From a virus, in the IMG/VR virus record IMGVR_UViG_3300005854_000025, positions 1 through 31,751 of that record: 31,751 bases of DNA. The stretch is one strand, 5' to 3'. Positions within the stretch are counted from its first letter, which is position 1. The number at the start of each line of letters is the position of its first letter. Below the pieces are notes generated by a model that searched no databases, was not told the DNA's origin, and saw only the letters and a list, made by a program, of their open reading frames with translations. Below are positions 7,111 through 22,346 of this stretch, piece by piece. The translations under genes and the position numbers were made by a program.

Positions 7111-7233
7111 CCCAAAACCATATACCTACCCCACACCACACAACTCCTACTTCCTCAAACATCATCTATCTACACTTCTAAAACCAAATTTCCCACTCTC
7201 TTATCTAGCACCACTTCACCCAACCCTCCCCTA

Positions 7234-8379
7234 TTAACCTCCACACTCAATAAGCCTTATCTCCTCCTCTGTAAGACCATATAACTCATAAACTAACAGG
7301 TCAATTTCCCTTTCAAGCTTTTTAACTTTTTGCTGTTTTTCTTGGCTGGTCTCAAAGTTGGGAGATTGGGTAAGTGTAAGAATTTCTTGAACCTTTTGGA
7401 CTATTTGGTCTGCAAGGGGTTGGGTCTCAGAGGTTAACTTTTTAATAGGTAATCTGCCTAAATAGCTTTCATTAAAATTCATAGTCATAACCGCCCCATT
7501 ATAAACAAACCAACAGTAAAACCACTCTGCTAGTCGTGAGTTCATTATCCCTAATACATATTCATACGGATATAAACTATTAGTTAAGAAAATATTCATT
7601 ACAGAATCCAAAGTCAAAAGCCCCTGTACATCATAAGTAGCCTTTATAACTACCCTACCAAAAGACTTCCTAGCATAAGCTAAAATTCTTTGAGAAATTA
7701 TCTTAGGTCTTAGCAACTTTTTAACTATATTACTGCTCAGCTCCTCCAATGTAAGAACAACTTTATCCAAAGGCTTACAAATTGCATATTTATCAACATT
7801 ACGTCCCCTGACTACTTCAACACCCCTATCATGATCTAAAATTTTTCCTTGCAAATATAAACCCCGACAAAACTCAGAAATATGAACAAGCAATATACTA
7901 TCTTTCAGCATCTTTTCAAATATTTTCAACTTTCTATTATCAACATATATCGGTAAAATCCCAAGCCTATCAGCCACAGAAGTTTTTACCACATTTATAA
8001 CCTCTATCATACCACCCCTGCATCTTCCAGCTTTATATCCATACCCATCAAAGTCTTTACCCTTCTGCGATATCAAAATAACTTGCTCAAGCTCAACACT
8101 TTCAAAAGCTTTCGTTATATCAATTAAAACAAGCAACTTATTGTTTTTGTAAATCAAAACCCTCGGCTTCTCCCAACTATCCACAAAAGTTATTGACTTA
8201 GGAACTACAAAAGCTAATATCCCACCCTGTCTCAAAAACTCAAAACCCCTCTCTATAAACAGAGATGCCGAGTTCCCTTTAGTTTCACAATATTTATAAT
8301 GCCTCCGTATATACTCCATACAACCTACCTTTACCCCATACGGTGGATTTCCAATCACTATATCAAACCCACCTCTCAT
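7234..8379 (-). CDS. N6-adenine DNA methyltransferase, C-terminal half (NPPY and target recognition)
   Basis: About 381 residues beginning MRGGFDIVIGNPPYGVK; the NPPY catalytic motif IV is at 11-14. It continues with a methyltransferase core (GGILAFVVPKSITF), a target-recognition region, and the closing IDLLVYELYGLTEEEIRLIE seen at the ends of Eco57I-type enzymes. Motifs X, I and II are in the upstream gene; the ATG overlaps that stop (ATGA), so the two halves are probably made as subunits, or one frame was broken by a -1 shift. The last third has reversed strand composition (in 7321-7440 the + strand has more G than C), unlike every neighbour, suggesting recent transfer. Confidence 0.85.
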   Translation of the reverse strand: MRGGFDIVIGNPPYGVKVGCMEYIRRHYKYCETKGNSASLFIERGFEFLRQGGILAFVVPKSITFVDSWEKPRVLIYKNNKLLVLIDITKAFESVELEQVILISQKGKDFDGYGYKAGRCRGGMIEVINVVKTSVADRLGILPIYVDNRKLKIFEKMLKDSILLVHISEFCRGLYLQGKILDHDRGVEVVRGRNVDKYAICKPLDKVVLTLEELSSNIVKKLLRPKIISQRILAYARKSFGRVVIKATYDVQGLLTLDSVMNIFLTNSLYPYEYVLGIMNSRLAEWFYCWFVYNGAVMTMNFNESYLGRLPIKKLTSETQPLADQIVQKVQEILTLTQSPNFETSQEKQQKVKKLEREIDLLVYELYGLTEEEIRLIECGG

Positions 8380-9323
8380 CTCAACCACTTCTCTGGAAAC
8401 TTTATCAACGCATTCCCTTGCACCACATTAAACCGCAAACACTGAAGAGGATCAACCTCCACCCTATCACCACTCTCCACCAAAGAAAACCACAACCTCA
8501 ACTTACAAATCTCAACCGCCCTCCCATCTATATCTACCCCATACAAAGAATTCTCTATAGCATGCCTCCTCACCTCATACTCAGATACACCACCCACCAA
8601 CCTCCTCAACCTAACTATCTCATCCAACATCCCAACCAAAAAAGCACCAGTCCCACACGCCGGATCACATACCTTCACCTCAGCTAATAACCTATCCACC
8701 TCACCTTCATACCCCCTCACACCAGATACATCACCACCCCTCACAAACTTATCTATCCCATTCTCACTTACCTTGCCCTCCAACTTCGCCACAAGATAAT
8801 AAAATAAACTCTCCCTACACATATACTCCACAATCATCTTCGGCGTATAATAAACACCCATCTTCTTCTTTTTCTCCTTACTCAACCACCCCAAAAACCT
8901 TTCATACACCCCACCCAAAACCTCATGCCCTAAACCTCTAAAATCATAAAACCTCAAACCCTTCCAACCCCTACTCCCACTATGCTTATACTCAAACACC
9001 TTTCTCAACGCATCAACTAATCCACTACACCCCAAAAACCTCTCCACATCCACCCTCAAAAACCCTACATCTATATACTTCCCTAAAACACCATACATAC
9101 CACCTAAAAAACCATCCAACGACTTCTCACAAAATACCTCAGAAATATACTCCCTCGACAACAACCGAAAATCCTCAAACATCCTCAATAACATCAACAT
9201 AAACAAAAGCTTAAAAACCCCTACCCTCCTCTCCTCCACATCTCCCACCTCACCCACCACACCATCTAAATAATCCAAATAACCCACCACATCTCTATAA
9301 AAAGCCTTTACCATATCATCCAT
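8376..9323 (-). CDS. N6-adenine DNA methyltransferase, N-terminal half (SAM binding)
   Basis: A 315-residue protein. A helical N-terminus leads to HEVLGGVYERFLGW and MGVYYTPKMIVEYM (motif X, about 155-168), then VCDPACGTGAFLVGM (SAM-binding motif I, 218-232), LYGVDID (motif II, 260-266) and VVQGNAL (300-306). It stops at KFPEKWLR, just where family members continue toward NPPY, which is encoded by the next gene. No PD-(D/E)xK nuclease is seen in the N-terminal 140 residues, so I call a methyltransferase, not a type IIG restriction enzyme. It would modify phage DNA against host restriction. Composition is typical of the resident genome. ATG 9321-9323 lies 3 bases after the sbcC tail relic. Confidence 0.85.
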   Translation of the reverse strand: MDDMVKAFYRDVVGYLDYLDGVVGEVGDVEERRVGVFKLLFMLMLLRMFEDFRLLSREYISEVFCEKSLDGFLGGMYGVLGKYIDVGFLRVDVERFLGCSGLVDALRKVFEYKHSGSRGWKGLRFYDFRGLGHEVLGGVYERFLGWLSKEKKKKMGVYYTPKMIVEYMCRESLFYYLVAKLEGKVSENGIDKFVRGGDVSGVRGYEGEVDRLLAEVKVCDPACGTGAFLVGMLDEIVRLRRLVGGVSEYEVRRHAIENSLYGVDIDGRAVEICKLRLWFSLVESGDRVEVDPLQCLRFNVVQGNALIKFPEKWLR

Positions 9324-9326: not shown

Positions 9327-9407
9327 TCAACCCTCCACCCTCAACTCACTTACCCCATCCCTCTTCTCTACTACCCATACCTCATCCCAATCCACCATCC
9401 TTTTTAA
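9327..9407 (-). pseudogene. Relic of a second sbcC 3' end
   Basis: An open stretch of 26 codons ending at TGA 9327-9329 encodes LKRMVDWDEVWVVEKRDGVS and a short tail. The last 18 residues align without gaps to the SbcC C-terminus (EVWMVEKKEGVSKLIVGG against EVWVVEKRDGVSELRVEG, 12 of 18 identical). The stretch is G-rich like resident genes. It contains the GGAGGG used by the methyltransferase, whose ATG follows after GGT. An ATG exists at 9396-9398 but without a proper ribosome site. I read this as the displaced native sbcC end, cut off by the endonuclease gene. Confidence 0.8.
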
Positions 9408-9443
9408 TTACTCACTTCTTATCTCTCTATCAACATATATCTC

Positions 9444-10479
9444 CTATTTCTCATAAAAACACTCTACTATCTTACTTATTACTTTTGCAGGATTCTTCAT
9501 TATTTCATCTTCCCAAATCTCTAATACCTCATAACCATATTTCCTATAAACCTCTTTCTTTTCTTTATCCCGTTCCTTTACTTTAGGAAAACTATGCCAA
9601 TAATTCCCATTCATTTCAATTATCCAATCTTCCTCCTTATGTATAAAATCAGGGACAAACCCCGCAATAAATACTTTTCCATCACCTACATATCTCCATT
9701 CTTCTGGGAAATAACTCTGCAACAAATCACAAAAAACCTTCTCTAAACGAGAAGGTTTTTTGTGAAAAACTTCTACTCTGGCTCTCACATTTTTCTCTCT
9801 ATATTTCAAATCCTGCCACTTTATTTTAATTACATAAGATTGCCTTACCCTACGTTCCAAACTTGCCCATGCTCCTTTTATTTTTTGAGAATGTTTTCTT
9901 CTATACTCTTCACTTTTCACATATATTCTATAACACTCCCAACTACAACATTTTTTCTTTTCTTCACTTTTCCTTACTTCAAACTCTTTACCACAAACTA
10001 CACAAACTTTTCTTATTCTTCTCCCTTGTAAAAATTTCTGCCAACATTTCTCACTACAAAACTTTTTATTACCCCCGCTTGGAATAACCAAAAACTCTTT
10101 ACCACAATATATGCATACATTCCTTAATCTCTTTCTCTTTTTAAATTCATCACTACACTGTCTACTACAAAATTTTCCTTTATTCTTTTCAATTAAACAC
10201 CTATAAACTTTAAACTCCTTACCACATACTATGCAAACCCTCGTTAACTTTTTTGCTCTATATAACTCAAAACATTTTTTTTTTACTACAAAACTTTCTA
10301 CTACTCTTACTTGGATCTACCCAAAACTCTCTATTACATATAATACAAATCTTCCTTATCCTTCTTATTCTATGTAAACCTTCGCATTTCTTACTACAAA
10401 ACTTCGCTTTATTCGCTTCACATCTATATACCTCAAATTCTTTACCACAGTTCAAACAAACTTTCTTTACTCTTCCTAT
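9444..10479 (-). pseudogene. Homing endonuclease 1, zinc-finger array plus EDxHD nuclease, frame broken at an A10 run
   Basis: Two frames join into one homing endonuclease. Frame one (10479 to 10267) encodes fingers CLNCGKEF/FCSKKC and CIICNREF/FCSKK, then hits TGA after ten A residues (10275-10284). One base fewer continues into frame two with CIVCGKEF/FCSRQC, CIYCGKEF/FCSEKC, CVVCGKEF/CCSWEC, then the nuclease: SRLEKVF, GDGK, VPDF, NYWH, ERDK, YEVLEIWEDE. These supply the E, D, H and D of the Vsr-like EDxHD family (I-Bth0305I type). There is no ATG or GTG at the 5' end; TTG 10453-10455 would cut the first finger. Frame two can start at TTG 10091. It is either inactivated or read through by slippage at the A run. 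It lies directly after sbcC. Confidence 0.8.
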
Positions 10480-10481
10480 CT

Positions 10482-12146
10482 TTATCCTCCCACTATCAAT
10501 TTACTCACCCCTTCTTTTTTCTCTACCATCCATACTTCACTACATAAATCAATAATCCCTCTCTTCACATCCTCATGATGCGTCACTACTACCACTGTCC
10601 TATCATCCCCCCTCAACCACTGAAGCAACTCCACCACCCTTCCACTATTCACCCTATCAAACGGCGCAAACACCTCATCAAGCACAAGCAAATTCGTCCC
10701 CTTCCCCTGATACATAAGAAAATCCGATAACCCTAACATCACAACCAACATTATCAAATACCTCTCACTACCACTCCACCAATTAAGCTTGCTCATACTC
10801 TTATACCCATCACTCACCTCAACCTCCAGCTGACCTCTGCTACCAATCCTAAACCTCACATCCATACCTAACACCTCACCATACCTCCTCATAAGCTCAT
10901 TAAACACAACCAACACCCTATCCAATACATATGCCACCACCCCATCATCACTTAACCCCCTCTCCCACTTCCTCGCTGTCTCAAACTCCCACTCCAACTC
11001 CTCTACCACCGAAAAATCTACACCACCCAACCTCTCTACCTGCCTCCTATACTCATCCGCCCTCGCCTTAACCTCCAACGCCCTCCTATACTCTGCTACA
11101 TCCCCTACCCTCCTCCTCATATCCCATACCTCTTTCAATAACCTCTCCCTATCAATCCCCTTACCCCTCACATACACAACCTCAAGCTCCCTCAACTGTC
11201 CTTCCACTTCCTTCAATAACTGAGATAACCTCTCTAACTCCTCCTTCGCCTCCCTCACAAACCTCTCAGTATCTACTTCAGAACCACATACCCAACCCCT
11301 CCCATCCCTCACATACCTCATCTTCTCCTTCACATTCGCCACCTTACCCGATAACTCATCCCTCACACTCCTCAACTGCCTTATCAAACCCTCTACCTTC
11401 AACGCATCACGCCACCTCTGCACCTGCTCCAACACATACCTCCTCCTCTTCCTATACTCCTCAACCGATATCGGCAAATCATTACCCCACCTCTCCAATA
11501 CTCCTAACGCCCACCTCAACTCCTCTTCCTTCACCTCCATCTCCTTCAACCTTCCCATCAACTCCCTCATATCCTTCCGCACCCTTAACTCAACTTCTAC
11601 CTCTTTCCTCCTCTCCTTTACCCTCTCCCTCAACCTCTGAAACACATCCAACCCTAACCACCTAATAAATAACTCCTTCCTTTCCGCATCACTCTTCACA
11701 AGAAAACTATCCATCATTCCCTGCTGAAACCAACTCGTCAACACAAACTCCTCATAACTCATCCCAACAAGCTCAGCTACCCTCTTCCTCATCACATCCC
11801 AATTGTACGCCTCCACCTTACCATTAACCCTTGCTACCCACCTCCTTTCCGAACCCCTCACATACTCCACCTCAACCTGACCCACCCCTTCCCTCTCAAA
11901 TAACACCAACCCACTACCCTTCTTCCTCAACCTATTCACTACATCATCCTTCACCTGACCACGGCTGTTCTCCTCCCATAACACTGTAGCCAACGCATCC
12001 CACAACGCCGACTTCCCAACCATATTGCTACTACCATCCCTGTCCCAATTCCGACCTTCAAGCAACACAAGACCAGGCTTGAACTGAACATCCGCTTGAC
12101 CATAACTGAAGAGGTCCCTAACCTTCAATGCCAAGAAACGCACCAT
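10482..12146 (-). CDS. sbcC: SbcC/Rad50/gp46-like exonuclease ATPase
   Basis: A 554-residue SMC-type ATPase, the partner of the SbcD-like nuclease at 13524-14471 in end-processing and recombination. It has Walker A SSNMVGKSAL (39-48), a Q-loop region near WFQQGMMDSF (139-148), two coiled-coil arms (about 165-285 and 290-400), ABC signature WWSGSERYL (456-464), Walker B LLVLDEVF (486-493) and H-loop VVTHHED (520-526). At the hook apex only GWVCGSEVD is present (Cys287), so the CxxC zinc hook is missing. ATG 12144-12146 follows GGGGGTGGGAG. The last ~25 codons are more AT-rich than the rest and appear to have arrived with the endonuclease gene downstream. Confidence 0.9.
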   Translation of the reverse strand: MVRFLALKVRDLFSYGQADVQFKPGLVLLEGRNWDRDGSSNMVGKSALWDALATVLWEENSRGQVKDDVVNRLRKKGSGLVLFEREGVGQVEVEYVRGSERRWVARVNGKVEAYNWDVMRKRVAELVGMSYEEFVLTSWFQQGMMDSFLVKSDAERKELFIRWLGLDVFQRLRERVKERRKEVEVELRVRKDMRELMGRLKEMEVKEEELRWALGVLERWGNDLPISVEEYRKRRRYVLEQVQRWRDALKVEGLIRQLRSVRDELSGKVANVKEKMRYVRDGRGWVCGSEVDTERFVREAKEELERLSQLLKEVEGQLRELEVVYVRGKGIDRERLLKEVWDMRRRVGDVAEYRRALEVKARADEYRRQVERLGGVDFSVVEELEWEFETARKWERGLSDDGVVAYVLDRVLVVFNELMRRYGEVLGMDVRFRIGSRGQLEVEVSDGYKSMSKLNWWSGSERYLIMLVVMLGLSDFLMYQGKGTNLLVLDEVFAPFDRVNSGRVVELLQWLRGDDRTVVVVTHHEDVKRGIIDLCSEVWMVEKKEGVSKLIVGG

Positions 12147-12172
12147 ACTCCCACCCCCATAACATCATAACA

Positions 12173-12772
12173 CTACTTCCTTGAAAACCTCTTCAATCTA
12201 CTCGCACTAAACTTCCGAGCCATCGCATCACTTATCTCTTTCAACGCATCAAGCTCCTCCACATAATGAACACCCATATAAACCTTCACCATCTTCTTCA
12301 ACTTCTCAAAATCCACCTTGCCCAACAACAAAACAATATCCTCTACATCCTTCTCCCTCGCACTCTTCAACTTCATCATTATTAGAAATTCCGGTCGAAG
12401 AACCCTCACATCGCCAACCCTCACCGCCATATCTAATCCATCTTGCTCCCAAGCCTTCTCAGCCACAATCAAATCCACCTTCAACGACCCACAATTCACC
12501 ACCACCGTAGCCAAATCAACCCCACCATACCCACCAACACGACAACCAATCTCCCTCAACCTGTCCCTCGCCTCCTCTAAATCTTCCTCCCTAATCAATA
12601 AATCAAGCTCCCGAACAGTGGGCTTCCTCCCAGTCACCCAATACGCCACAGCAACCCCACCACATATCGCATAGTCCAACCCCTCAAGCTGAGACAACAC
12701 ATCCTCAACATCAACCCGCATCGCCTCCATCAAATCAATTACCCTCTCAAACCTCTCATCTAACCTAACCAT
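12173..12772 (-). CDS. Nucleotidyltransferase-fold protein (AbiEii/DUF6036-like)
   Basis: A 199-residue protein from ATG 12770-12772; the frame runs to 12826 but that would begin inside the terminator. It shows the minimal nucleotidyltransferase pattern: ICGGVAVAYW (36-45), RKPTVRELDLLI (49-60, with Glu55 and Asp57 as metal ligands) and KVDLI (98-102). LRPEFLIMMKLKSAREKDVEDI (125-146) follows. Relatives include AbiEii-type toxins and orphan nucleotidyltransferases. No antitoxin partner is recognised beside it. It sits between the SbcC gene and a terminator, so it heads a short transcription unit with sbcC. Confidence 0.7.
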   Translation of the reverse strand: MVRLDERFERVIDLMEAMRVDVEDVLSQLEGLDYAICGGVAVAYWVTGRKPTVRELDLLIREEDLEEARDRLREIGCRVGGYGGVDLATVVVNCGSLKVDLIVAEKAWEQDGLDMAVRVGDVRVLRPEFLIMMKLKSAREKDVEDIVLLLGKVDFEKLKKMVKVYMGVHYVEELDALKEISDAMARKFSASRLKRFSRK

Positions 12773-12793
12773 CAGAACATCCCCCTCCTCCTT

Positions 12794-12817
12794 GCTTTTT
12801 ACATAAATATAAAAAGC
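12794..12817 (-). repeat. Inverted repeat overlapping the terminator base
   Basis: GCTTTTTA and TAAAAAGC form a perfect 8-bp inverted repeat with an 8-base loop. On the transcript it starts two bases inside the terminator stem and absorbs its U-tract, so the two structures compete at their junction. It lies just before the ribosome site of the nucleotidyltransferase gene and could modulate read-through or translation. Confidence 0.6.
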
Positions 12818-12857
12818 GGCTTCCAACCCCTTACCCTACAAGGGTCAGAAGCCGCCC
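12811..12857 (-). terminator. Rho-independent terminator
   Basis: On the minus strand GCGGCTTC (12848-12855) pairs with GAAGCCGC (12816-12823), and a nested ACCCTTGTAGGGT hairpin lies in the loop; five T residues follow (12815-12811). It is 16 bases after the stop of the 12874-13272 gene and is the only clear intrinsic terminator in the window. It should separate the upstream sbcD-containing unit from the nucleotidyltransferase-sbcC unit, unless bypassed. Confidence 0.8.
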
Positions 12858-12873
12858 ATAAACCACACCGCAT

Positions 12874-13272
12874 TTAGCCTAATACTTTGTCCCTCTCTTT
12901 ATCAACCACAAACACCGCTACATATCTTAATATTACATTTACATTAATCTCACCCGCATCCTTCGACGCATTCAAATCATCAATCATCACACTATCCACC
13001 GAACATGCACTAAACAACAACCCTCTTCGTCCAGAACCCAAACTAATAAACACATCATGCGACTTCTTACTCATAACCCACTCCGTAAAAAATACCAATA
13101 CATCCAAATCTCTACTCTCTACAAACTCTAGCCTTAATTCCTTGCCTTCAGGAAACTCTGCAAACTTCACATCCTTCAAATACTTAGCTACATTCTCCCA
13201 ACCCTCCCTCTCAATTCTCACCTCAAATTCATTAGCCTTAAGATACCTCTCGCATACCTTAGACCTAGGCAT
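12874..13272 (-). CDS. Hypothetical protein ahead of the terminator
   Basis: A 132-residue, beta-rich protein with no family I can name. ATG 13270-13272 follows GGAGGTGGGAGT. Segments include EFPEGKELRLEFVESRD, KKSHDVFISLGSGRRGLLF and a C-terminal VNVILRYVAVFVVDKERD. The pattern of an extended beta domain could fit a virion or sliding-type fold, but I see no specific motif. It is the last gene before the terminator, in the unit that carries sbcD. Confidence 0.7.
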   Translation of the reverse strand: MPRSKVCERYLKANEFEVRIEREGWENVAKYLKDVKFAEFPEGKELRLEFVESRDLDVLVFFTEWVMSKKSHDVFISLGSGRRGLLFSACSVDSVMIDDLNASKDAGEINVNVILRYVAVFVVDKERDKVLG

Positions 13273-13289
13273 ACTCCCACCTCCTCTCC

Positions 13290-13508
13290 TTATTTAAACT
13301 CAACATCAACAAAACTCGGCAACCTCTTTAACTTATTCCACATAACCTCAAATTCATCCTTACTAATATCTGACACCCCTTCCCATACAGGAAACACCCC
13401 ATCTCCAACAAAACGAAACACAATCCTACGACCATCAGACCCCTCAAACAACTCAATCATCACCACATGGTCCAAATTCAATACCTTATTTGCTAATCTT
13501 ACCCACAT
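13290..13508 (-). CDS. Small hypothetical protein
   Basis: A 72-residue protein, mostly beta-strand, starting at ATG 13506-13508 after GGAGGTGAG. It opens with WVRLANKVLNLDHVVMIEL, contains RRIVFRFVGDGVFPVWEG and ends KRLPSFVDVEFK. Such a layout is common in small single-domain phage proteins of unknown role. It lies between the sbcD-like gene and the 132-residue protein with 15-17 base gaps, in the same operon. Confidence 0.65.
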   Translation of the reverse strand: MWVRLANKVLNLDHVVMIELFEGSDGRRIVFRFVGDGVFPVWEGVSDISKDEFEVMWNKLKRLPSFVDVEFK

Positions 13509-13523
13509 ACTCTCACCTCCTAC

Positions 13524-14471
13524 TTAATTTTTCAACAAACCTTTCACCCACTGAATTTCCTTCTCCCCTACCTTCAACACCTTCCTCCCATACTCCTCAA
13601 GTATCTTCCACACATCAACCTTCACATGTTCCAACTGAAACAACCTCGCCTCACTATCATACCCCCTCACTACTTCAAGCAAATACTCAACCCCTACCGC
13701 TCCCAACCCTCTCACCCTGCTCGCCAAATCCCTATCCTTAACCCTTACATAACAATTCTTCACATCCAACACCTCCAAATCCTCTACCCTGTCCACATGA
13801 ACAAACCTCACACCATACCCATCAACCCACTCCCACCTCAAAAAATCTAAATCCACAACCACACCTCCTACCTCTAACCCATCCCCAAAACCACGCTGAA
13901 ACGGAACACCTGCATATACCACCTTCCCAACAACCTGCCTCTTATGAATATGCCCTGATACCACTAACTTTACCCCTTCAAAATCATCCAAGCTTACCTG
14001 CTCCTTCCCTTCCCACACTACCGCCTCCCTCAACTCAAAATGCCCAAACACTACATCACCTTCCAACCTTCCCCTTGACTCCTGAATACACCACTTCCAT
14101 GGCACATACATAATATCCCTACCTCCCACCCGCTCACTACACACCACCATATCAACAACTCGCACTCCCTCCAACCCCTTCAACACCTCTAACCCACTCT
14201 CCTCACACCTTTTGTCGTAATAATCATGATTACCTGCCACTACTACTACATCCACTTCCCTACTCAACTCCCTAAACAAAAACCACACCCTATCCTTATC
14301 CCGACCACTATGCATCCTATCCCTAAACGCATCTCCAAGAAATACTACACGCTGACATCCCCACTCCTTTACCTTACTCAAAACCCAATCACAAAGCCTG
14401 TCCTCCTGCTCCCTCACCCACTGATACCGACTAGGACCTACATGAATATCACCAAAGCTAAAAATTCTCAT
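13524..14471 (-). CDS. sbcD: SbcD/Mre11/gp47-like nuclease
   Basis: A 315-residue calcineurin-like metallophosphoesterase. All phosphoesterase motifs are visible: FGDIHVG (6-12, Asp8, His10), FLGDAFRDR (44-52, Asp47), AGNHDYYD (79-86, Asn81, His82), VFGHFE (141-146, His144) and SGHIHKRQ (172-179, His174, His176). The C-terminal ~100 residues would be the capping/partner-binding part. With the SbcC-like ATPase it should process DNA ends for recombination-dependent replication, as T4 gp46/gp47 do. The two partners are separated here by three genes and a terminator. The start ATG overlaps the upstream stop (ATGA). Confidence 0.92.
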   Translation of the reverse strand: MRIFSFGDIHVGPSRYQWVREQEDRLCDWVLSKVKEWGCQRVVFLGDAFRDRMHSGRDKDRVWFLFRELSREVDVVVVAGNHDYYDKRCEESGLEVLKGLEGVRVVDMVVCSERVGGRDIMYVPWKWCIQESRGRLEGDVVFGHFELREAVVWEGKEQVSLDDFEGVKLVVSGHIHKRQVVGKVVYAGVPFQRGFGDGLEVGGVVVDLDFLRWEWVDGYGVRFVHVDRVEDLEVLDVKNCYVRVKDRDLASRVRGLGAVGVEYLLEVVRGYDSEARLFQLEHVKVDVWKILEEYGRKVLKVGEKEIQWVKGLLKN

Positions 14472-14764
14472 TTCTCATCTCCTTCCTTACCCTTGTCTTT
14501 CGTACTACCCTTTAACTCTTTTAACTCTTCCCATTCCTCCTTGAATACATTCCTCAAACATGAAAAATTAAACCCAAACCTCCTCTTCCTCTTCTCCACT
14601 TCATCCTCAAAAGACAAAACTACAGACCAGCCCCTCTTTATCAAACTCGTCAAATAATCATTCAGAACATAAGACGGTAAAATAAATACACTCATACGAG
14701 ACAAATCAACCCAATCAACAATAGCTACATGTTTCTTATTAACTGTCAAAACCGTAAGAAACAA
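14468..14764 (-). CDS. Hypothetical protein, possibly the 3' part of a split gene
   Basis: About 98 residues if translation begins at TTG 14762-14764, which follows GGAGG by 5 bases; the frame is open to 14788. It contains VNKKHVAIVDWVDLSRM, RGWSVVLSFEDEVEKRKRR and a Lys/Glu-rich end. The upstream 77-residue gene overlaps it by a few codons in another frame and ends in an odd basic stretch. One extra T in the TTTTT near 14790 would fuse the two into a protein of about 180 residues. So this is either a coupled pair or a frameshifted gene. No family is recognised. Confidence 0.55.
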   Translation of the reverse strand: MFLTVLTVNKKHVAIVDWVDLSRMSVFILPSYVLNDYLTSLIKRGWSVVLSFEDEVEKRKRRFGFNFSCLRNVFKEEWEELKELKGSTKDKGKEGDEK

Positions 14765-14979
14765 ATCTTCCTCCGTTGTCTTATGCAAAAATTAACTGAA
14801 TGCTTTACTATAAAAACATCATTCCATCTATAAACACTAAAGCTTATCGACTTGAAAATATCACCACTTAACCTCTCCTTCACAACAGAAAGCACTTTAT
14901 CAACTAACGGCAAACTTTCATCACGAACAATACCTTCTCCATAAACAACCGGATAATAAAAAATCGTACAAACACTCAT
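14746..14979 (-). CDS. Hypothetical protein, possibly the 5' part of a split gene
   Basis: A 77-residue frame from ATG 14977-14979, with GGAGGGTGGGTG upstream. It begins MSVCTIFYYPVVYGEG, carries VDKVLSVVKERLSGD, and then SVYRWNDVFIVKHSVNF. After that the reading frame turns into CIRQRRKICFLRF, which looks out-of-frame, while the other frame continues with a plausible domain. This supports an indel around 14785-14792 but does not prove it. Confidence 0.55.
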   Translation of the reverse strand: MSVCTIFYYPVVYGEGIVRDESLPLVDKVLSVVKERLSGDIFKSISFSVYRWNDVFIVKHSVNFCIRQRRKICFLRF

Positions 14980-14991
14980 CACCCACCCTCC

Positions 14992-15873
14992 TTAAATACT
15001 CTTATTTACTACTAACTTCACTACTCTGTCCTTGTCCACCTCCTCATACCGGACCCCAATCACCGCAATAAACCCATTCGGATGCAAAAACACTCTCGGA
15101 TACTCCTCAAATACCCTGCTCAAATCTATATCTTTCGCCCACTCCAAATTCGTATTCTTTATCACAGATGTATGCTCCCTACTCATAGAATTCCTCTCAA
15201 CCAACAAAACAACCCCACTCTCCTGAAAGAACCTATAGTGGTATGGTGCCAAACTCTCAGCAGAAAACGCTACCTTCACATCACCATACTCCCTAATCTC
15301 AACTTTACCCACCTTCTCCCTATACCTCTCCTCCTCTTCTCTTATTTTCCGACGAGGCTCATCCAATAAACCTATCTCATCCAACGCCGCATACACCTTC
15401 CTTATCCACAACGAATAATCATCAATCAATAACGTATCCCATAATACCTTACCCACTTCACCTCCATACCTATTCAAATCAATCAACAATATCTCCCTCC
15501 TCATCGCATCTTCCTGCGGATCTAACCTTACCCCAACCTCCTCACTTGCCCTCTTCACACCAAACCTATCCGCTACATCAATAAACCTCAACACCCTCGA
15601 CATCACAGATAACCCATAAACATGCCTCAACACCAATACCAACGAACAATTCAAACTCACATCCTGATGATGATCAAAATTCATCCACTCCGGCTCATAC
15701 CTACCTCCCACATCCACCAGACACACTTCCCTATCTTCATAATACTCCTGCGGCACCTGCTGAGGATGCACAAACTCAACTAACGCATCCGGATAACTCC
15801 TCTTCAATAACGCAACCGCAATAAAATCATCCCAATGCCTCGGCTCCTTGTGCGTAACTATCTTCCTCACCAT
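14992..15873 (-). CDS. MYG1-like DHH-superfamily phosphoesterase/exonuclease
   Basis: A 293-residue protein from ATG 15871-15873, preceded by GGGGGTGGGAGGT. The N-terminus has THKEPRHWDDFIAVALL (7-23), matching the metal-binding TH-x(4)-H-x-DE start of MYG1/UPF0160 proteins. LVDVGGRYEP (52-61) and MNFDHHQD (64-71, Asp67, His68, His69) follow. MYG1 relatives are 3'-5' exonucleases acting on RNA; the substrate here is unknown. The later region, with SAESLAPYHYRFF and RVFLHPNGFIAVIG, fits the family's C-terminal half. The 37-base gap upstream is AT-rich (TATAAATATAAG) and might hold a weak promoter. Confidence 0.8.
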   Translation of the reverse strand: MVRKIVTHKEPRHWDDFIAVALLKRSYPDALVEFVHPQQVPQEYYEDREVCLVDVGGRYEPEWMNFDHHQDVSLNCSLVLVLRHVYGLSVMSRVLRFIDVADRFGVKRASEEVGVRLDPQEDAMRREILLIDLNRYGGEVGKVLWDTLLIDDYSLWIRKVYAALDEIGLLDEPRRKIREEEERYREKVGKVEIREYGDVKVAFSAESLAPYHYRFFQESGVVLLVERNSMSREHTSVIKNTNLEWAKDIDLSRVFEEYPRVFLHPNGFIAVIGVRYEEVDKDRVVKLVVNKSI

Positions 15874-15910
15874 ACCTCCCACCCCCTCGCTTATATTTAT
15901 ACAATATTAC

Positions 15911-16405
15911 TTATATAACCTCATACAAACTAAACACCCCTCTCTCAACCTGACCAAGCTTCTCTATCTTCTTTACCTCAACCTCCTTACCACACAACTC
16001 TCTCAACATATCCTCAACCGCACGACCCTCAAACTCTACTTCCCAACTATCCGAACCAACCCGCACCTTCATCCTATACCTCCCACCTAAAACCTCCAAC
16101 TCATACACCCCCACACCACATAACACCCTCTCTCTACCCTCACCACTCCTCACTTCAGCCTTATCCACTTTCTTCAACACCCTCTCTTTCCACCTTTCAG
16201 GCTTACTTATTACTTTGTAAAAAGTATCATTACCCTCTTTTCTCATCTCAATCTTCCATCCTTGTTTCCTTCTCCGATGTAAAAACCTCCACAAATCAAT
16301 CTTCTCCTCAGGAAATTTCTCCTGAACCAACTTCTTGAACTCAGACAAATAAAAACCTCTCTCTAACAACTCATCCAACCACTCCGCATATTTAACCTCA
16401 GCCAT
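15911..16405 (-). CDS. Putative winged-helix N-terminal protein
   Basis: A 164-residue protein from ATG 16403-16405, with GGGAGGTGGTGGGT before it. Residues ~5-65 (EWLDELLERGFYLSEFKKLV, then LWRFLHRRRKQGWKIEM and DTFYKV) look like a helix-helix-helix-wing module with the basic recognition-like helix FLHRRRKQGW. The C-terminal ~80 residues are beta-rich (YRMKVRVGSDSWEVEFEG). It could bind DNA or RNA, for example as a regulator, but this rests on pattern only. No known family. Confidence 0.6.
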   Translation of the reverse strand: MAEVKYAEWLDELLERGFYLSEFKKLVQEKFPEEKIDLWRFLHRRRKQGWKIEMRKEGNDTFYKVISKPERWKERVLKKVDKAEVRSGEGRERVLCGVGVYELEVLGGRYRMKVRVGSDSWEVEFEGRAVEDMLRELCGKEVEVKKIEKLGQVERGVFSLYEVI

Positions 16406-16430
16406 ACCCACCACCTCCCTTCAAATTTGA

Positions 16431-16937
16431 TTAAGCAAATACCTCATCAAAATCTACAACATGAGGACGAGGAAACGGAACCCATCTGTTTGTCTCTCTT
16501 TCAATAGTCATAATATTACTAAGTTTACTCTTCACCTCTTCCTTCACAGCATCAATTTCCTCAGGAGTTAACCTCTCTAACAACTGCTGTATCGCATACC
16601 TCTCAGACAACTCCTGATCAGTATATAACTCATCACCCTCCAAATCAATTGGAGAATTTGCCTTATAAATCGGATACTCACCATTACAATACTTCTCTAA
16701 CAACACCAAACCCAAATCCACATGAGCCCGAACCCTACCAGAAAGCTTCGCCCTCCTAACAAGACCTCTATACCCAACCTTTACCTCCTCAAATTCAAAT
16801 GCAATCGGCACCTCCCCATACGCATACCTCTTGTGAGGAAGACCATACTTCTTCAACAACTCTAAAATCTTTCCTTTACTCCTAGCTTCTAACAACTCAA
16901 GTGAAGCTACTCCTTCGTAAAACACAAACCTCTCCAT
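16431..16937 (-). CDS. Hypothetical protein
   Basis: A 168-residue protein with ATG 16935-16937 after AAAGGAGGTGGGAGT. It is rich in charged helices: SKGKILELLKKYGLPHKRY, LTPEEIDAVKEEVKSKL, and a Pro-rich end WVPFPRPHVVDFDEVF. No motif is recognised. It is downstream of the coiled-coil gene led by the first 36-bp promoter module, so it probably belongs to that transcript, and its codon use is like its neighbours. Confidence 0.65.
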   Translation of the reverse strand: MERFVFYEGVASLELLEARSKGKILELLKKYGLPHKRYAYGEVPIAFEFEEVKVGYRGLVRRAKLSGRVRAHVDLGLVLLEKYCNGEYPIYKANSPIDLEGDELYTDQELSERYAIQQLLERLTPEEIDAVKEEVKSKLSNIMTIERETNRWVPFPRPHVVDFDEVFA

Positions 16938-16966
16938 ACTCCCACCTCCTTTTAGTTTTTATTTAG

Positions 16967-17392
16967 CTAAAACTCAATCTCTCTGTTCATTTTCGCCAAT
17001 TCCTTTTTCCACGACAAATAAGTCATCAGAAGATCACGCTTTGTCTCTAACGCCTGAACCAAAGTCGACAATAAATCAACCTCCTGCTTTGCTTCAATAA
17101 CACGCCTCTTCGCCTCCTGCCACTCAGGAGACCTCACCACCGCCTCCTCAACTGCCTTCTCGGTCACCTTAGGCAACGTCTCCCTAAAATGCTTAGCCAA
17201 ATTTGCCTCAAGCACCTGAAACTCTAACCTCCTACCCTCATACTCCGCCTTCGCTCTTGCTAATAACACCCCTAACTCTGCATACTTATAACTCAACTCC
17301 CTCAAATCCTCCTCAAGTCGGCTATCATCTATCACCAAAGTCTCCCTCAAAAACTTCTCAAACTCATTACCTCCCATCTCACTAAACCTCAT
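16967..17392 (-). CDS. Coiled-coil phage protein
   Basis: A 141-residue protein starting at ATG 17390-17392 after GGGAGGTGGGAGT; the frame is open five codons further. Most of it is helical: a long coiled coil from ~25 to 60 (LREL, YAELGVLLARAKAEYEGRR), then a second from ~85 to 125 ending LVQALETKRDLLMTYLSWK. An ALxxKRDxL end following an AExxY helix is common in small phage proteins near recombination genes, but I cannot name a function. A promoter module lies 22 bases upstream. Confidence 0.65.
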   Translation of the reverse strand: MRFSEMGGNEFEKFLRETLVIDDSRLEEDLRELSYKYAELGVLLARAKAEYEGRRLEFQVLEANLAKHFRETLPKVTEKAVEEAVVRSPEWQEAKRRVIEAKQEVDLLSTLVQALETKRDLLMTYLSWKKELAKMNREIEF

Positions 17393-17413
17393 ACTCCCAC
17401 CTCCCATCTCATC

Positions 17414-17449
17414 CTTCTACATACATTATACTCAGAAAAACCTCACACC
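17414..17449 (-). promoter_or_regulatory. Repeated promoter module, copy 1
   Basis: A 36-bp module reading GGTGTGAGG, ten bases ending TGAG, TATAAT, then GTATGTAGAAG. It starts just after the stop codon (TAA 17451-17453) of the preceding gene. The -10 is 32 bases from the ATG of the next gene. It matches copy 2 at 33 of 36 positions. There is no TTGACA at the -35 position, so the GGTGTGAGG box may serve a phage or phage-modified factor. Confidence 0.75.
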
Positions 17450-17450
17450 C

Positions 17451-18320
17451 TTACCTCCCACCTAACCTCCTATACTCATTAACAATCGCAATGTCCTCGT
17501 CAGTCGCATACTTACTAGCCATCTCTTTCAATATCGTCTCAACAGTCTCCTTATGCCTATCAGAAACATACCACCCAGGAGGAATGCGACTTGGCTTGAT
17601 CAGCCCAGGAAAAACAACAGAATCTATATCCCGTATCCCTCTCGTGTCCTTCAAATAGATCAAATAATCCTTTATCTTCGCTTTTACCTCACTAGGCAAA
17701 AGCTCAAACCTCAAACTATAATACACCCCACTTCTCCCCTCTCCTCTACCAATCCCAACAGGATTCAACATCTTCCCAAGCAAAACTAACCTAACCCAAT
17801 TGTTCTCTATCTCATCCCATAACAACTTCAACCTCTCACTCCTCTTCACCATCCAAACCTTATCAAGAAACTCTTCATAATATCTCCGAATATCAGCATT
17901 AACCTTCGCTAACTCCTTCACCTTTTCCTCCAACAACTCAAAAGTCATACCCTCAACACGAATAATGATCTTGCCATCCTTAAGCTCTGAACTCCTCACT
18001 AAATGCTTCGCCCAATACATCAAGCTCCTCACTACCTCAATCTCCCAAAGTTCCTCATCAATCAACTTCCTTACATAGTCCAACACCGTCTCAGCTTTCA
18101 ACTTCAAACTTCCTGTGCCCCTCTCTGCAACCTCCTTAATCAACTCATAAGTCTCATTCCGAAGAGCTAAATAAACATCCCCAGTCTTCCGCTCATAGAC
18201 AACAACCTTACAATCTACCCCCTTATACCTTTGGTCCACCTCCACTCTATACCTGTAAGGAGCCCGAAAAATCTTTGTCAAAAACTGAAAAACCTTATCT
18301 AACACCTCTCTCACTTCCAT
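17451..18320 (-). CDS. Hypothetical protein of 289 residues
   Basis: The protein begins at ATG 18318-18320, with GGGAGGTGGGTGT as the ribosome site; the frame extends to 18353 but that part overlaps the promoter region. It has an N-terminal mixed domain (YRYRVEVDQRYKGVDCKVVV, KTGDVYLALRNETYEL), a helical middle (LIDEELWEIEVVRSLMYWAK) and a C-terminal part with SRIPPGWYVSDRHKETVETI. I recognise no family. Its own promoter module suggests a gene needed in quantity or at a defined time. Confidence 0.65.
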   Translation of the reverse strand: MEVREVLDKVFQFLTKIFRAPYRYRVEVDQRYKGVDCKVVVYERKTGDVYLALRNETYELIKEVAERGTGSLKLKAETVLDYVRKLIDEELWEIEVVRSLMYWAKHLVRSSELKDGKIIIRVEGMTFELLEEKVKELAKVNADIRRYYEEFLDKVWMVKRSERLKLLWDEIENNWVRLVLLGKMLNPVGIGRGEGRSGVYYSLRFELLPSEVKAKIKDYLIYLKDTRGIRDIDSVVFPGLIKPSRIPPGWYVSDRHKETVETILKEMASKYATDEDIAIVNEYRRLGGR

Positions 18321-18346
18321 ACACCCACCTCCCACCTCATTTTCCA

Positions 18347-18382
18347 CTTCCACTTACATTATACCCAGAAAAACCTCACACC
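18347..18382 (-). promoter_or_regulatory. Repeated promoter module, copy 2
   Basis: The same 36-bp module: GGTGTGAGG, ten bases ending TGGG, TATAAT, then GTAAGTGGAAG. It begins inside the last codons of the Cys-rich gene, whose TGA (18376-18378) is part of the GGTGTGAGG box. The -10 lies 37 bases from the ATG of the 289-residue protein. Confidence 0.75.
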
Positions 18383-18594
18383 TTGCCCCGCCTCTTCTTA
18401 GAATAACCCTTACATTCCTCCCCATTAAAATACTTCGAACACAACCGACACATCTCATTCCCATGCTCAAACCCTACGCCAAACATCGGACACTTACCAA
18501 CTGCACTCACCACATAATATCCAGAACACATCTCAAACAGATTGCACCCAATACACTCCCCCGCCCCAAACCTCCCAAAACACTCTCTCAACAT
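18376..18594 (-). CDS. Small Cys-rich protein, likely metal or Fe-S binding
   Basis: A 72-residue protein with eight cysteines: CFGRFGAGECIGCNLFEMC near the N-terminus, then KCPMFG, MCRLC and EECKGY. ATG 18592-18594 lies 8 bases after GGAGG; another ATG at 18600 is too close to it. Such spacing fits a zinc or iron-sulphur site, but no family is recognised. It overlaps nothing and follows the resolvase gene by 5 bases. A promoter module begins at its stop codon. Confidence 0.7.
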   Translation of the reverse strand: MLRECFGRFGAGECIGCNLFEMCSGYYVVSAVGKCPMFGVGFEHGNEMCRLCSKYFNGEECKGYSKKRRGKV

Positions 18595-18599
18595 ACCCA

Positions 18600-18926
18600 T
18601 CACCTCCCCTTCAATATCAATCCTATAAACTTATCTATCCTCATAACCACAATAGGCTTCTGCCTACCCACACCTAATACCAATACATCTACTCCCTTCC
18701 CTACCGCCTCCTCAACCCACCTAAACAACTCCTTATAACTACCTGTTCGTCTCTTACACTCTATAAACAACTCAAACCCCTCATCAATTTTAACGATCAC
18801 ATCGCCTCTCATTGCAGGAGCTACCCCCGAAACAGGAACCCTATTCGCCTCAAACCCAGCTCGCCTAAACCAATCCCTAACCCTATACTCAAACCCCTTC
18901 CCAACCTTAATCGACCTCTTACCCAT
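18600..18926 (-). CDS. Hjc-like Holliday junction resolvase
   Basis: A 108-residue PD-(D/E)xK protein. The layout fits archaeal-type Hjc: GKGFEYRVRDWFRRAGFEA with Glu13, RVPVSG (29-34), MRGDVIV (39-45, Asp42), and FIECKRRTG (54-62, Glu56, Lys58). A helix and the strand DVLVLGVG complete the fold. It would resolve recombination junctions or branched replication intermediates. ATG 18924-18926 lies 3 bases after the polA tail relic, whose end supplies its ribosome site (AAGGAATGG). Originally it must have followed polA directly. A related replication-linked nuclease is the alternative. Confidence 0.8.
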   Translation of the reverse strand: MGKRSIKVGKGFEYRVRDWFRRAGFEANRVPVSGVAPAMRGDVIVKIDEGFELFIECKRRTGSYKELFRWVEEAVGKGVDVLVLGVGRQKPIVVMRIDKFIGLILKGR

Positions 18927-18929
18927 ACC

Positions 18930-19001
18930 TTACCATTCCTTGCAATCTCCCCACGACCTCCCAACCGCTACATCAATGTCAAACTCCAAAAACTTTTCCA
19001 T
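18930..19001 (-). pseudogene. Relic of a second polA 3' end
   Basis: Twenty-three codons ending at TAA 18930-18932 encode EKFLEFDIDVAVGRSWGD and then CKEW. The polymerase gene itself ends EKFVEFDIDIEVGKSWGE and CKEI: 16 of 22 residues match without gaps. The relic is G-rich like resident genes, whereas the tail now on polA is more AT-rich. It overlaps the last codons of the endonuclease gene in another frame, which marks the insertion point. The stop is separated from the resolvase ATG by GGT, exactly as in the sbcC relic. Confidence 0.88.
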
Positions 19002-19983
19002 AAAAGTAACTTAACACTTTTTCTACAACAGCCTTAGGATCAGAATACACCTCAGTTTCCCAAATCTCCAACACTTTATAACCATTTTCAATATATACCT
19101 TTGTTTTTATCTTATCTCGTTTCCTATTCTCAGGTAAACTATGCCAATAGTCTCCATGCACTTCAATTATCCATCTTTTCTCTCTATGAACAAAATCAGG
19201 AATAAACCCTTCTACAATCATCTTTCCATCACCCACATAAATCCACTCCCCAGGAAAAGAATTTTGCAACAAATCGTCTACCACCTTTTCCAGCCGGGTA
19301 GGTCTAACCTCTCGTACTTCTACTACTTTCTTAATAAACTCAGCTCTAAATTCAGGATCTTGCCATACACGAGTCGCCTTTTGCCTAAACTCCTGATCCT
19401 GCCACAAAGCAGAAGTAATCTTAGAACGCATAGCCTTGCCTTTTTCACTATTTAGATACCTTCTCCAACATTCCCGACTACAAAACTTACCATAGCCTTT
19501 CCTTACTAACCATTCGTCTGCTTCAAATTCTCTACCACAACCACGGCAAATTAATTTCACTTTCCTTCTTCTAGCTAAACCAGCACACTTCCTACTACAA
19601 AACTTACGAGATCCTGCCAAAGATGCTATTACTTCAAATTCCTTACCACAATAGGAACACTTCATCTTAACAGATTTCTTGTTCTTTTGAGCAACAATTT
19701 GTACAATCTCATACACTCGTTTTCTGCCTTCTTCACTATTTATATACTTTAAGTAGCATTCCCAGCTACAAAACTTTCTATTATGTTTATAATTCAGCTC
19801 ACTTTTTCTCACCTCAAACTCCTTACCACAACCAAAGCAAATCAACTTTACCCGTACTCTTCTATATAAACCTTCACATCTTTTACTACAAAATTTACGA
19901 AAATTCGCCTCTGATAACCTTACCTCAAATTCTTTACCGCAATAAAAACAACCTAGTTTCACTCTACTAGTTTTACTAGCCAT
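18979..19983 (-). CDS. Homing endonuclease 2, four zinc fingers plus EDxHD nuclease
   Basis: A 334-residue protein. Four C-x2-C...FCS-x2-C fingers are seen: Cys12/15/32/36, 49/52/72/76, 109/112/129/133 and 146/149/168/172, most with CGKEFEV after the first pair. Then come two short repeats (WQDQEFR, WQDPEFR at 194-212) resembling NUMOD-type DNA-contact helices. The Vsr-like nuclease domain holds TRLEKVV (Glu232), GDGK, FIPDF (Asp263), WIIE, DYWH (His281), KRDK (Asp290) and KVLEIWETE. This matches the EDxHD homing endonuclease family. It starts 11 bases after the polA stop and ends inside the polA tail relic. It is paralogous to the damaged gene at 9444-10479. Confidence 0.92.
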   Translation of the reverse strand: MASKTSRVKLGCFYCGKEFEVRLSEANFRKFCSKRCEGLYRRVRVKLICFGCGKEFEVRKSELNYKHNRKFCSWECYLKYINSEEGRKRVYEIVQIVAQKNKKSVKMKCSYCGKEFEVIASLAGSRKFCSRKCAGLARRRKVKLICRGCGREFEADEWLVRKGYGKFCSRECWRRYLNSEKGKAMRSKITSALWQDQEFRQKATRVWQDPEFRAEFIKKVVEVREVRPTRLEKVVDDLLQNSFPGEWIYVGDGKMIVEGFIPDFVHREKRWIIEVHGDYWHSLPENRKRDKIKTKVYIENGYKVLEIWETEVYSDPKAVVEKVLSYFYGKVFGV

Positions 19984-19994
19984 CTACCTTACAA

Positions 19995-22346
19995 CTAGAT
20001 CTCTTTGCATTCTCCCCAAGATTTACCAACTTCAATATCTATATCAAACTCTACAAACTTCTCATCTGGTAACTCAATATTTCTCACCTCTTTTTTTATT
20101 ATACGACAAACCTCTTCCACTTCCTCTCCAGGACAATCTACAATCACAGAGTCATGGACAAAATTCACTACCTTACCTCGAAAACCTTCCCTATACAACC
20201 TTTCCACTATTCTCCAAGCTGTTAGCGCAGCAATATCACTCGCCGCACTCTGTACAGGTGTATTCACTGCCTTCTGCTTCCAACCTTCCATATCTCCAAC
20301 AGGATCTATCCACCTAAATCTACCAAACATTGACCTAACATAACCAACCTCCCTAACAAATTCTCTTACTCTATCAAGCCAAACTTTTAATCCAGAAAAC
20401 ATCTGAAAATATTTTTCAAGCATCTTCTTAGCATCCTCTATAGGTATCGATAAATCTTTTGATATAGTTACATGACTCATCCCATAAATTACTCCGAAGT
20501 TATACACTTTTGCCCTCCTCCTATACTCCTTCCTTACCTCCTCTGGCGCATCCTGAGGCATTCCATACAGCTCAATCGCCACCTTCGTATGAATGTCTAC
20601 ACCAGACTCAAAAAACTCTTTCATTTTTTTATCTTTTGAATACTGACACGCAACCCTCAACTCATGCTGACTAAAATCCGCCTTCACAATCTTGCCATCC
20701 TCACCAAACCTGCTCACAAAAGCCTTCTCCAAAACAGGACCTAACCTCGTTGGAATATTCATCAAATTTGGCTCAGATGATGCAAGTCTCCCTGTATCCG
20801 TCCCAACTACAGAAAACTTCGAATGAATACAACCATCAGCCCTTATCCACTCTTCTAAAAATGGTTCCACATAGGTCCCAAGCAGCTTCTCTATTACCCT
20901 GTACTCAAGCAACCTCTCTATCCTCACCCTTGCCTCATCAGATAACCTATCCCCTTGAACCTTCAAAACTCCCTCTAAAACCTCCTTCCTCGTCGACTCA
21001 ATCTCAATACCAACCTCCCTTAACCACTCCAACACTTGCTTCGGCGAATTTAAATTGACCCTACCAACACCACGTAAAAACTTCCTCTTCCTTTCCTCTA
21101 ACTCCTTCCTCAACCCAACTAAATACTCCACATCCACATACATCCCATTCACCTGCAACTCAATACTCAAATTTAATATCCCCTTCACTACCTCATACGC
21201 ATCCCACAAACTTCTACTCACCCTCCCAAATATCTCACTCCACCGAAGAGGTACCTTCTTAAGCTTCTCCTTAAACAACTTATACAACTCCAACGTCACA
21301 TGCGCATCCATCGCATTATACTCATACAACCTCTCCCTCTCTAACCTCCTAATATCAACTTTTTTCCAGTCTATTCCATATTGCCCCACATCCAAAAAAT
21401 CTAACGCCAACCGCTTCAACGACACACCCGGAACCGCCTTCCCACTAAGCAAATAATACATCACCTGAACATCCTCTATATCACTACTCCTCCCATGCAA
21501 CTCCCAACCATACTCCTTCACACCCAGTACTACATCAAACCCAGCATTATACACAATTAACTTTCTCGCCCGCTTATACACCTCCTTCATAAATTCCCTT
21601 GCTCTATCTTCACCCAACCTCTCCAAATCCACAACATAACACCTACCATCAACCGCTAACCCAACCGTCAACACCTTAAACTCTCCATGCCACACATCAC
21701 TCCCAACCGTCTCAAAATCAAGCGCAACTTCCTTGCCCCCCACCACCGATAACACTTCATCTAACCTCACACCATCAACCACATCATACCTAATCCTCCT
21801 ATACAACTTCCCAGTCTCAACAAATACACACCCCCGAACTAAATCCTTTACAAATTGCTCATACGGACTCACATCAAGAACTATATCCTTATTAAACATC
21901 TGACGATACGCCGGATGCCAAGTTACTAACACTTTTCCATACTTCGTATCAACAATATTACCCCTCACATCAGATAACGCCCCAGGGACCTCAAAAAACT
22001 CTTTCGCTGTGGACCCTAACGCCACTATCAACCGTCGCCCCTTCAAACGCATTAACTCCTGCTCCAACTTCACCCTACAACACTTCACAATCTCCTTTGA
22101 CAGTTGATTATTCGGAGGATAACACTTGACTACATTCGTGATATAAACCTTAGACCAATCTACACCTATCGCCTCTAACACCGTCTTCAAAATCTTGCCT
22201 GAATAACCAACGAAGGGACGCCCCTGGCGCTCTTCCTCCTCACCAGGAGCCTCCCCAACAAGCACTAACTCTGCTCCCAAATCTCCCTCAGGATCAACCC
22301 TCCTCTTCCCACGCAAAGGACAAGATAAACATACCACATCACTCAT
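19995..22346 (-). CDS. polA: UDG / 3'-5' exonuclease / PolA-type DNA polymerase fusion
   Basis: A 783-residue replicative polymerase. Residues 1-170 are a family-4-type uracil-DNA glycosylase: CLSC (Cys6, 9), GEAPGEEEERQGRPFVG (31-47), NVVKCYPPNN (71-80), VKCC (Cys89/90), VTWHPAY (141-147); the four Cys fit a 4Fe-4S cluster. The exonuclease has LDFET (209-213), YNAGFD (266-271) and NAMDAHVT (344-351). The polymerase has TDTGRLASSEPNLMNIPTR, motif A KADFSQHELR (555-564), motif B RRAKVYNFGVIYGMS (610-624) and motif C FVHDS (729-733). A glycosylase-polymerase fusion also occurs, to my knowledge, in SPO1-like phages. The last codons seem exchanged with the homing endonuclease. Confidence 0.95.
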   Translation of the reverse strand: MSDVVCLSCPLRGKRRVDPEGDLGAELVLVGEAPGEEEERQGRPFVGYSGKILKTVLEAIGVDWSKVYITNVVKCYPPNNQLSKEIVKCCRVKLEQELMRLKGRRLIVALGSTAKEFFEVPGALSDVRGNIVDTKYGKVLVTWHPAYRQMFNKDIVLDVSPYEQFVKDLVRGCVFVETGKLYRRIRYDVVDGVRLDEVLSVVGGKEVALDFETVGSDVWHGEFKVLTVGLAVDGRCYVVDLERLGEDRAREFMKEVYKRARKLIVYNAGFDVVLGVKEYGWELHGRSSDIEDVQVMYYLLSGKAVPGVSLKRLALDFLDVGQYGIDWKKVDIRRLERERLYEYNAMDAHVTLELYKLFKEKLKKVPLRWSEIFGRVSRSLWDAYEVVKGILNLSIELQVNGMYVDVEYLVGLRKELEERKRKFLRGVGRVNLNSPKQVLEWLREVGIEIESTRKEVLEGVLKVQGDRLSDEARVRIERLLEYRVIEKLLGTYVEPFLEEWIRADGCIHSKFSVVGTDTGRLASSEPNLMNIPTRLGPVLEKAFVSRFGEDGKIVKADFSQHELRVACQYSKDKKMKEFFESGVDIHTKVAIELYGMPQDAPEEVRKEYRRRAKVYNFGVIYGMSHVTISKDLSIPIEDAKKMLEKYFQMFSGLKVWLDRVREFVREVGYVRSMFGRFRWIDPVGDMEGWKQKAVNTPVQSAASDIAALTAWRIVERLYREGFRGKVVNFVHDSVIVDCPGEEVEEVCRIIKKEVRNIELPDEKFVEFDIDIEVGKSWGECKEI

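Follow-up and report, generated by a model that had tools for sequence, protein, structure and literature searches.

Homing endonucleases spare their host by sitting in introns, inteins or intergenic gaps, and a fourth way of doing so, in which a recoded spare for the end of the target gene is carried along, is to our knowledge known otherwise only from fungal mitochondria. Here we describe two elements that appear to follow this fourth way in IMGVR_UViG_3300005854_000025, an uncultivated virus record of 31.7 kb that we analysed over its whole length (the window, hereafter) and that we judge from its gene content to be a phage. Each element lies directly behind an important phage gene, polA in one case and an sbcC-like gene in the other, whose last stretch has apparently been swapped. 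In the fungal systems, mobile endonuclease open reading frames (ORFs) with a foreign C-terminus displace the native one, examples being atp6 of Allomyces macrogynus and atp6, atp9, cox2 and nad3 of Glomus sp., and DNA identity to a close relative is 64–81% for the inserted copies and 91–98% for the native ones (PMC3630166). What the window elements share with these ORFs is a seemingly foreign in-frame C-terminal part, an endonuclease ORF and a displaced native C-terminus, all without splicing, and tail copies with diverged DNA but similar protein sequences. A second reference point is provided by the free-standing seg/mob endonucleases of phage T4, for which a review describes co-conversion of flanking sequence and insertion at gene boundaries (PMC2988022).

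Two endonuclease genes stand between a host gene and a second copy of its end

Both elements, their host genes and their downstream neighbours are on the minus strand. Element 2 has the order polA, homing endonuclease gene 2 (HEG2), relic 2 and Hjc/Mrr-like gene. The polA gene (19995..22346), by our reading a hybrid, encodes a UDG-PolA DNA polymerase (Pfam DNA_pol_A, E=1e-82, with UDG and 3'-5' exonuclease) and ends in EKFVEFDIDIEVGKSWGECKEI and a stop codon, 11 nt past which lies the ATG of HEG2 (18979..19983, ATG at 19983). HEG2 is intact, and its 334-aa product has four CxxC/FCS zinc fingers and an EDxHD (Vsr/DUF559-like) nuclease domain. The second copy of the polA end, EKFLEFDIDVAVGRSWGDCKEW with its own stop (relic 2, 18930..18998), partly overlaps the last HEG2 codons (18998 versus the HEG2 end at 18979) and is followed by GGT-ATG of the Hjc/Mrr-like (PDDEXK) gene (18600..18926, ATG at 18926). 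Between this relic and the last 69 nt of polA (19995..20063), the putative in-frame replacement tail, 17 of 23 residues and 49 of 69 nt are identical.

Element 1 consists, in order, of an SbcC/Rad50-like gene, HEG1, relic 1 and an N-6 DNA methyltransferase gene. The first of these, again a candidate hybrid (10482..12146; Pfam AAA_23/SMC_N/SbcC_Walker_B), encodes an ATPase ending in SEVWMVEKKEGVSKLIVGG before the stop, and its last 60 nt (10482..10541) form the putative replacement tail. Relic 1, DEVWVVEKRDGVSELRVEG with its stop (9327..9386), matches that tail in 13 of 20 residues and 42 of 60 nt and runs into GGT-ATG of the methyltransferase gene (ATG at 9323), whose N-terminal part (8376..9323; Pfam N6_Mtase) is the native neighbour. 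HEG1, placed by translation of the region at about 9444..10473, is a paralogue of HEG2 (47% identity overall, 55% in the nuclease domain) that has apparently decayed, as no ATG or GTG start precedes the first finger and the reading frame shifts near a run of ten A (10275–10284). These defects fit the decay phase of a homing cycle; the frameshift, at such a run, may also be a sequencing error.

Much of this had been anticipated by the original prediction, which correctly held that both endonucleases are of one family, that both start just past the host stop (for HEG1, about 10473 versus a stop at 10482) and that a second tail copy, here of ~20 codons, leads in both elements into GGT-ATG of the next gene. 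Two corrections apply: HEG1 is not intact, and the description of the targets as replication genes has to be narrowed, the sbcC-like gene being a recombination gene and not a replication gene. Each unit would consist of a foreign 3' end plus an endonuclease, with the relic as the displaced native end.

Tails and relics exceed chance similarity and differ in codon usage

Gene tails were compared with their downstream DNA in 10,143 tests covering the window and 132 other loci (designated below by L numbers), alongside an equal number of shuffled tails. The polA pair scored 102 and the sbcC pair 68, the latter barely above the best shuffled tail (64) yet exactly at the predicted place, and a chance origin was rejected because both pairs exceed that maximum. 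Further high scores at L017, L039, L063 and L114 look like those of tandem gene copies or of repeats and low complexity, not of endonuclease flanks, and the weak matches at L128, L097, L024 and L140 were chance or GC-rich noise.

Third-position GC (GC3) is 0.50 in the phage genes and 0.28 in the endonucleases. Both gene sets served to train a synonymous-codon score, positive values of which are endonuclease-like. By this score, the in-frame tails of polA and sbcC reached +6.9 and +7.6 bits respectively, values as extreme as which are seen in 1.5% and 1.2% of native windows and in none of the 31 native gene ends. The relics scored −2.5 bits (relic 2) and −6.4 bits (relic 1), both ordinary for the phage, and usage within the sbcC-like gene turns endonuclease-like only over its last ~60–90 bp. 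In both elements, the tail in use therefore has the look of DNA that entered along with the endonuclease, and the disused copy has that of native DNA. Moreover, the differences between tail and relic are distributed over codon positions 1, 2 and 3 as 3, 3 and 14 in polA (n=20) and as 3, 5 and 10 in sbcC (n=18). From these third-position shares (14/20 and 10/18), both copies would have diverged under protein constraint, as expected of functional gene ends diverging in separate lineages and not of decay after a duplication.

An empty site and a lineage switch at the polA 3' end

In the syntenic relative L010 (IMGVR_UViG_3300028675_000094), the genes follow in the same order but no endonuclease gene lies among them. 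Its polA ends in EEKFVEFEIDIAIGKSWGDCKE and a stop, followed at once by GATATG of the same Hjc-like gene, so that it presents the empty site, with its real polA end at the position held in the window by relic 2. The window PolA protein is 85%, 77% and 77% identical to those of L010, L011 and L013. At the DNA level, identity to L010 falls from 87.7% in the part up to ~20549 to 75.0% in the final 555 bp of the gene (19995..20549), where identity rises from 74.6 to 79.8% for L011 and from 75.1 to 80.7% for L013. No such drop is seen at the breakpoint between L010 and L011 themselves (74.2 to 76.1%). The breakpoint has a strength of 24.4 log units, against a maximum of 10.8 among 1000 codon permutations (0/1000 as strong), and codon usage in the segment stands at +0.07 versus −0.34 bits per codon. 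Past relic 2, the Hjc-like gene is again closer to L010 (82.9% nucleotide identity) than to L011 (76.5%). Since identity switches at ~20549 and returns to L010-like values past the relic, another lineage is the most likely source of HEG2 together with the final ~555 bp of polA, with the DNA on either side resident. Identity of the in-frame tail is higher to L011 (91%) than to L010 (85%). Relic 2, a short stretch compared with an L010 that has itself diverged, is 77% identical to L011 and 75% to L010, and its codon usage and flanks accord with a displaced native end.

At the same boundary, L011 (5263–5859) and L013 (from 8370) have what by eye is a folE-like (GTP cyclohydrolase I) gene, and with this gene in place neither they nor the other relatives found qualify as the direct donor. 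With nothing there in L010, HEG2 in the window and the folE-like gene in L011 and L013, insertions may favour the polA 3' end as a hotspot. The 3' flank was readable at 47 viral UDG-polA loci, and only that of the window contains a polA tail duplicate. Some UDG-polA matches are ~0.6–1.1 kb longer than the protein needs (L098:1132-4365, L104:1884-5132, L116:6001-9441 and L133:4994-7984), and these genes probably contain inteins, introns or other insertions.

The endonucleases and their relatives

In HEG1 and HEG2, CxxC...FCSxxC fingers are repeated, and the C-terminal domain matches DUF559/MTES_1575 (Pfam). In profile comparisons, the nuclease domain matched the EDxHD enzyme I-Bth0305I (3r3p; E=5.6e-6), with weak matches to Vsr, and an AlphaFold model of the HEG protein (pLDDT 87) had 3r3p as its best Foldseek match in the PDB (TMt 0.81). 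Domain residues E12, D43, H61 and D70 are invariant in HEG1, HEG2 and the endonuclease of L138, their roles being assigned by alignment. By profile and predicted fold, then, both proteins are placed in the EDxHD (I-Bth0305I) family, and cleavage and homing would be their presumptive activities. Likeness to I-Bth0305I is confined to the nuclease domain; that enzyme is intron-encoded (the title of 3r3p is 'Mobile intron protein'), whereas in HEG1 and HEG2, both free-standing, tandem CxxC/FCS fingers precede the domain. The target of I-Bth0305I is reported as nearly 60 bp (PMC3943268), a length with which that of the relics (~60–70 bp) is comparable.

Relatives gathered from viral contigs, genomes and phages amounted to 13 distinct loci, 12 of them with a testable upstream gene. 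None of these 12 has a tail duplicate, not even L138, whose endonuclease is the closest relative (55% in the nuclease domain). A scan of 84,980 genomes with the nuclease domain yielded one distant archaeal relative (L137), again without a tail duplicate, and the arrangement of tail, HEG and relic is absent from the mycobacteriophage and Microcystis phage relatives that we examined. The expectation that EDxHD proteins with zinc fingers form a general class flanked by tail duplicates was thus not supported: several members of the family do sit at gene ends, and tail replacement is a trait of the HEG1 and HEG2 elements, not of the family. The EDxHD genes of L138 (4150–5370) and the distant L046 (5340–6360) occupy one and the same boundary, between the stop of a PAAR gene and the start of a gp25-like baseplate gene, with no relic; occupied in different phages, this boundary looks like a recurrent homing site.

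Several further observations were made at relatives. In mycobacteriophages Malithi (L139:2408-3262) and Fishburne (L140:2534-3394), a zinc-finger/EDxHD frame lies opposite annotated genes (54/58, hypothetical protein), and the annotation appears to have picked the antisense frame. A similar frame at L008:5368-6678 is antisense to, and within, minus-strand ORFs 4306–5877 and 6415–7647, which look like an intein-interrupted Mu-like head gene. At L017:7214-9504, four tandem paralogous genes ending in KLDEFLKDHPEVK are directly 3' of a zinc-finger/EDxHD-like endonuclease gene. Within the window, 4477–6003 holds by eye a gene for a TnpB-like (OrfB) transposon protein of 508 aa, and the adenine methyltransferase next to relic 1 (7234–9323) is split into two overlapping ORFs, of which the second (7234–8388) has endonuclease-like AT-rich codon usage (GC3 0.32), a value that suggests a recently imported or exchanged half.

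Proposed course of events and alternatives

We propose, with a probability of about 0.78, that each element combines a free-standing EDxHD homing gene with a 3' end of its target gene that is of foreign origin, the two being physically linked, and that the native tail has been displaced. In a mixed infection, the endonuclease would cut the resident gene within its native 3' coding end, and repair from the donor would copy in a diverged functional tail together with the endonuclease gene, over about 555 bp of polA and about 60–90 bp of sbcC. The resident's last ~20 codons would be left downstream, still carrying the ribosome-binding region of the next gene, and the host gene would terminate at the imported stop codon. 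Since about 30% of positions, mostly third codon positions, are changed in the imported tail relative to its native counterpart, an allele that already contains the endonuclease gene should escape renewed cutting. Cleavage, the location of the target, immunity through the recoded tail and homing itself are what we infer from the arrangement. Because a Shine-Dalgarno-like AAGGA or GGAGGG lies inside the relics (AAGGAATGGTAAGGTATG; GGAGGGTTGAGGTATG), it is plausible that a relic is retained for the ribosome site of the next gene. Tail replacement with a retained native relic and no splicing is the core of what had been predicted from the window, and it is upheld by the empty site in L010, the polA breakpoint, the split in codon usage and the lack of a detectable intron RNA.

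Several points weigh against this proposal, beginning with the survey result above. A close donor with HEG2 and an L011-like polA was not found among the relatives, relic 2 by itself has too few positions for identity to reveal its origin, and each single codon-usage test is modest (1.2–1.5% of native windows). The 12% divergence between the window and L010 means that the breakpoint could stem from a separate mosaic exchange. Searches with sbcC, with sbcD and in the L010–L013 records returned no empty sbcC site; as no relative carrying that gene was found, it is codon usage and the relic that point to import of the sbcC tail.

The main open alternative is that the tail is not a strategy but a by-product, that is, that these are ordinary free-standing HEGs whose co-conversion exchanged the tail incidentally and whose imprecise (microhomology) right junction left the relic. 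Flanking co-conversion is standard for phage HEGs according to the T4 review (PMC2988022), the right junction of HEG2 falls within a GAAAAGTTT stretch that resembles the ends of other HEGs, and the endonuclease genes of L138 and L046 are at gene ends with no relic. Against this, two paralogues within one genome arrived at a common arrangement, at unrelated genes and over tracts of unequal length, and a relic arising twice as a by-product would be strange; we consider this account unlikely. Two flanking tail copies would also result, with no need for a foreign donor, had the endonuclease gene entered the 3' end and duplicated ~60–70 bp of target, the copies drifting thereafter. We rejected such an origin, which is a good deal less probable still, given that divergence begins 555 bp before the polA stop, far outside the duplicated part and in the form of a lineage switch, that tail and relic differ in codon usage, and that their differences are at third codon positions, unlike the spread in a decaying copy.

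The window being an uncultivated virus contig and polA being highly conserved near 20549, an assembler could have switched there between two phage strains. The junction of HEG2 and relic, however, has just about 9 nt in common with polA, an overlap too short to be joined through k-mers, and sbcC would require another chimera of independent origin, which makes a metagenomic assembly artefact very improbable. A group I intron or intein with misread boundaries has in its favour that introns often encode homing endonucleases, those of the EDxHD type among them. We rejected both forms of spliced element: the in-frame tails have their own stops, so that no splicing is needed, the HEGs are in separate frames after the stop, and the polA element had no Rfam match to an intron RNA even at E≤1.

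More broadly, and tentatively, the two elements might be natural home-and-rescue elements of phages, in which an EDxHD endonuclease with a recoded functional 3' end of the gene that it cuts invades conserved coding sequence with neither intron nor intein, paralogues retargeted to different genes make up a mobile family in this phage group and the relic keeps the operon translated. We regard this reading as possible, though somewhat more likely to fail than to hold.

Comparison with known elements

The supposition that such a design is undescribed did not survive comparison with the fungal mitochondrial mobile ORFs, which have the same design (PMC3630166). A seemingly foreign in-frame 3' end is indicated in polA by the breakpoint and the 91% match to L011, and in sbcC by codon usage; a displaced native 3' end is seen in the relics (18930–18998 and 9327–9386) and in the empty site of L010. 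The fungal ORFs encode LAGLIDADG or GIY-YIG nucleases in mitochondrial genomes, whereas the window elements are in a phage, combine EDxHD with zinc fingers, are at replication and recombination genes and leave a relic with the ribosome site of the next gene. Because of the EDxHD nuclease and the phage setting, we class them as a variant and not as members of the fungal set. The literature searched held no report of a tail-replacing design in phages, the fungal case being the only one, although most subscription papers were outside the search and this absence is no proof. What is new here, then, is the occurrence of tail replacement in a phage, with a different nuclease family, and twice.

The T4 seg/mob genes resemble the window elements in lying between conserved genes, and SegA, SegF, SegG and MobE are among those listed as targeting the flanking gene; in contrast, a term search of the review found no displaced gene tail (PMC2988022). 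Engineered home-and-rescue and cleave-and-rescue drives likewise couple a nuclease to a recoded rescue copy of the essential gene that it cuts (PMC7968924, PMC7951863). They are CRISPR-based, whereas the window elements are natural and would use a protein endonuclease, and the likeness is one of analogy only. If our proposal holds, two cases in one phage would show that this solution arose outside mitochondria with another nuclease family, and would offer a bacterial virus in which to test directly whether recoding confers immunity, as a natural counterpart of engineered rescue drives.

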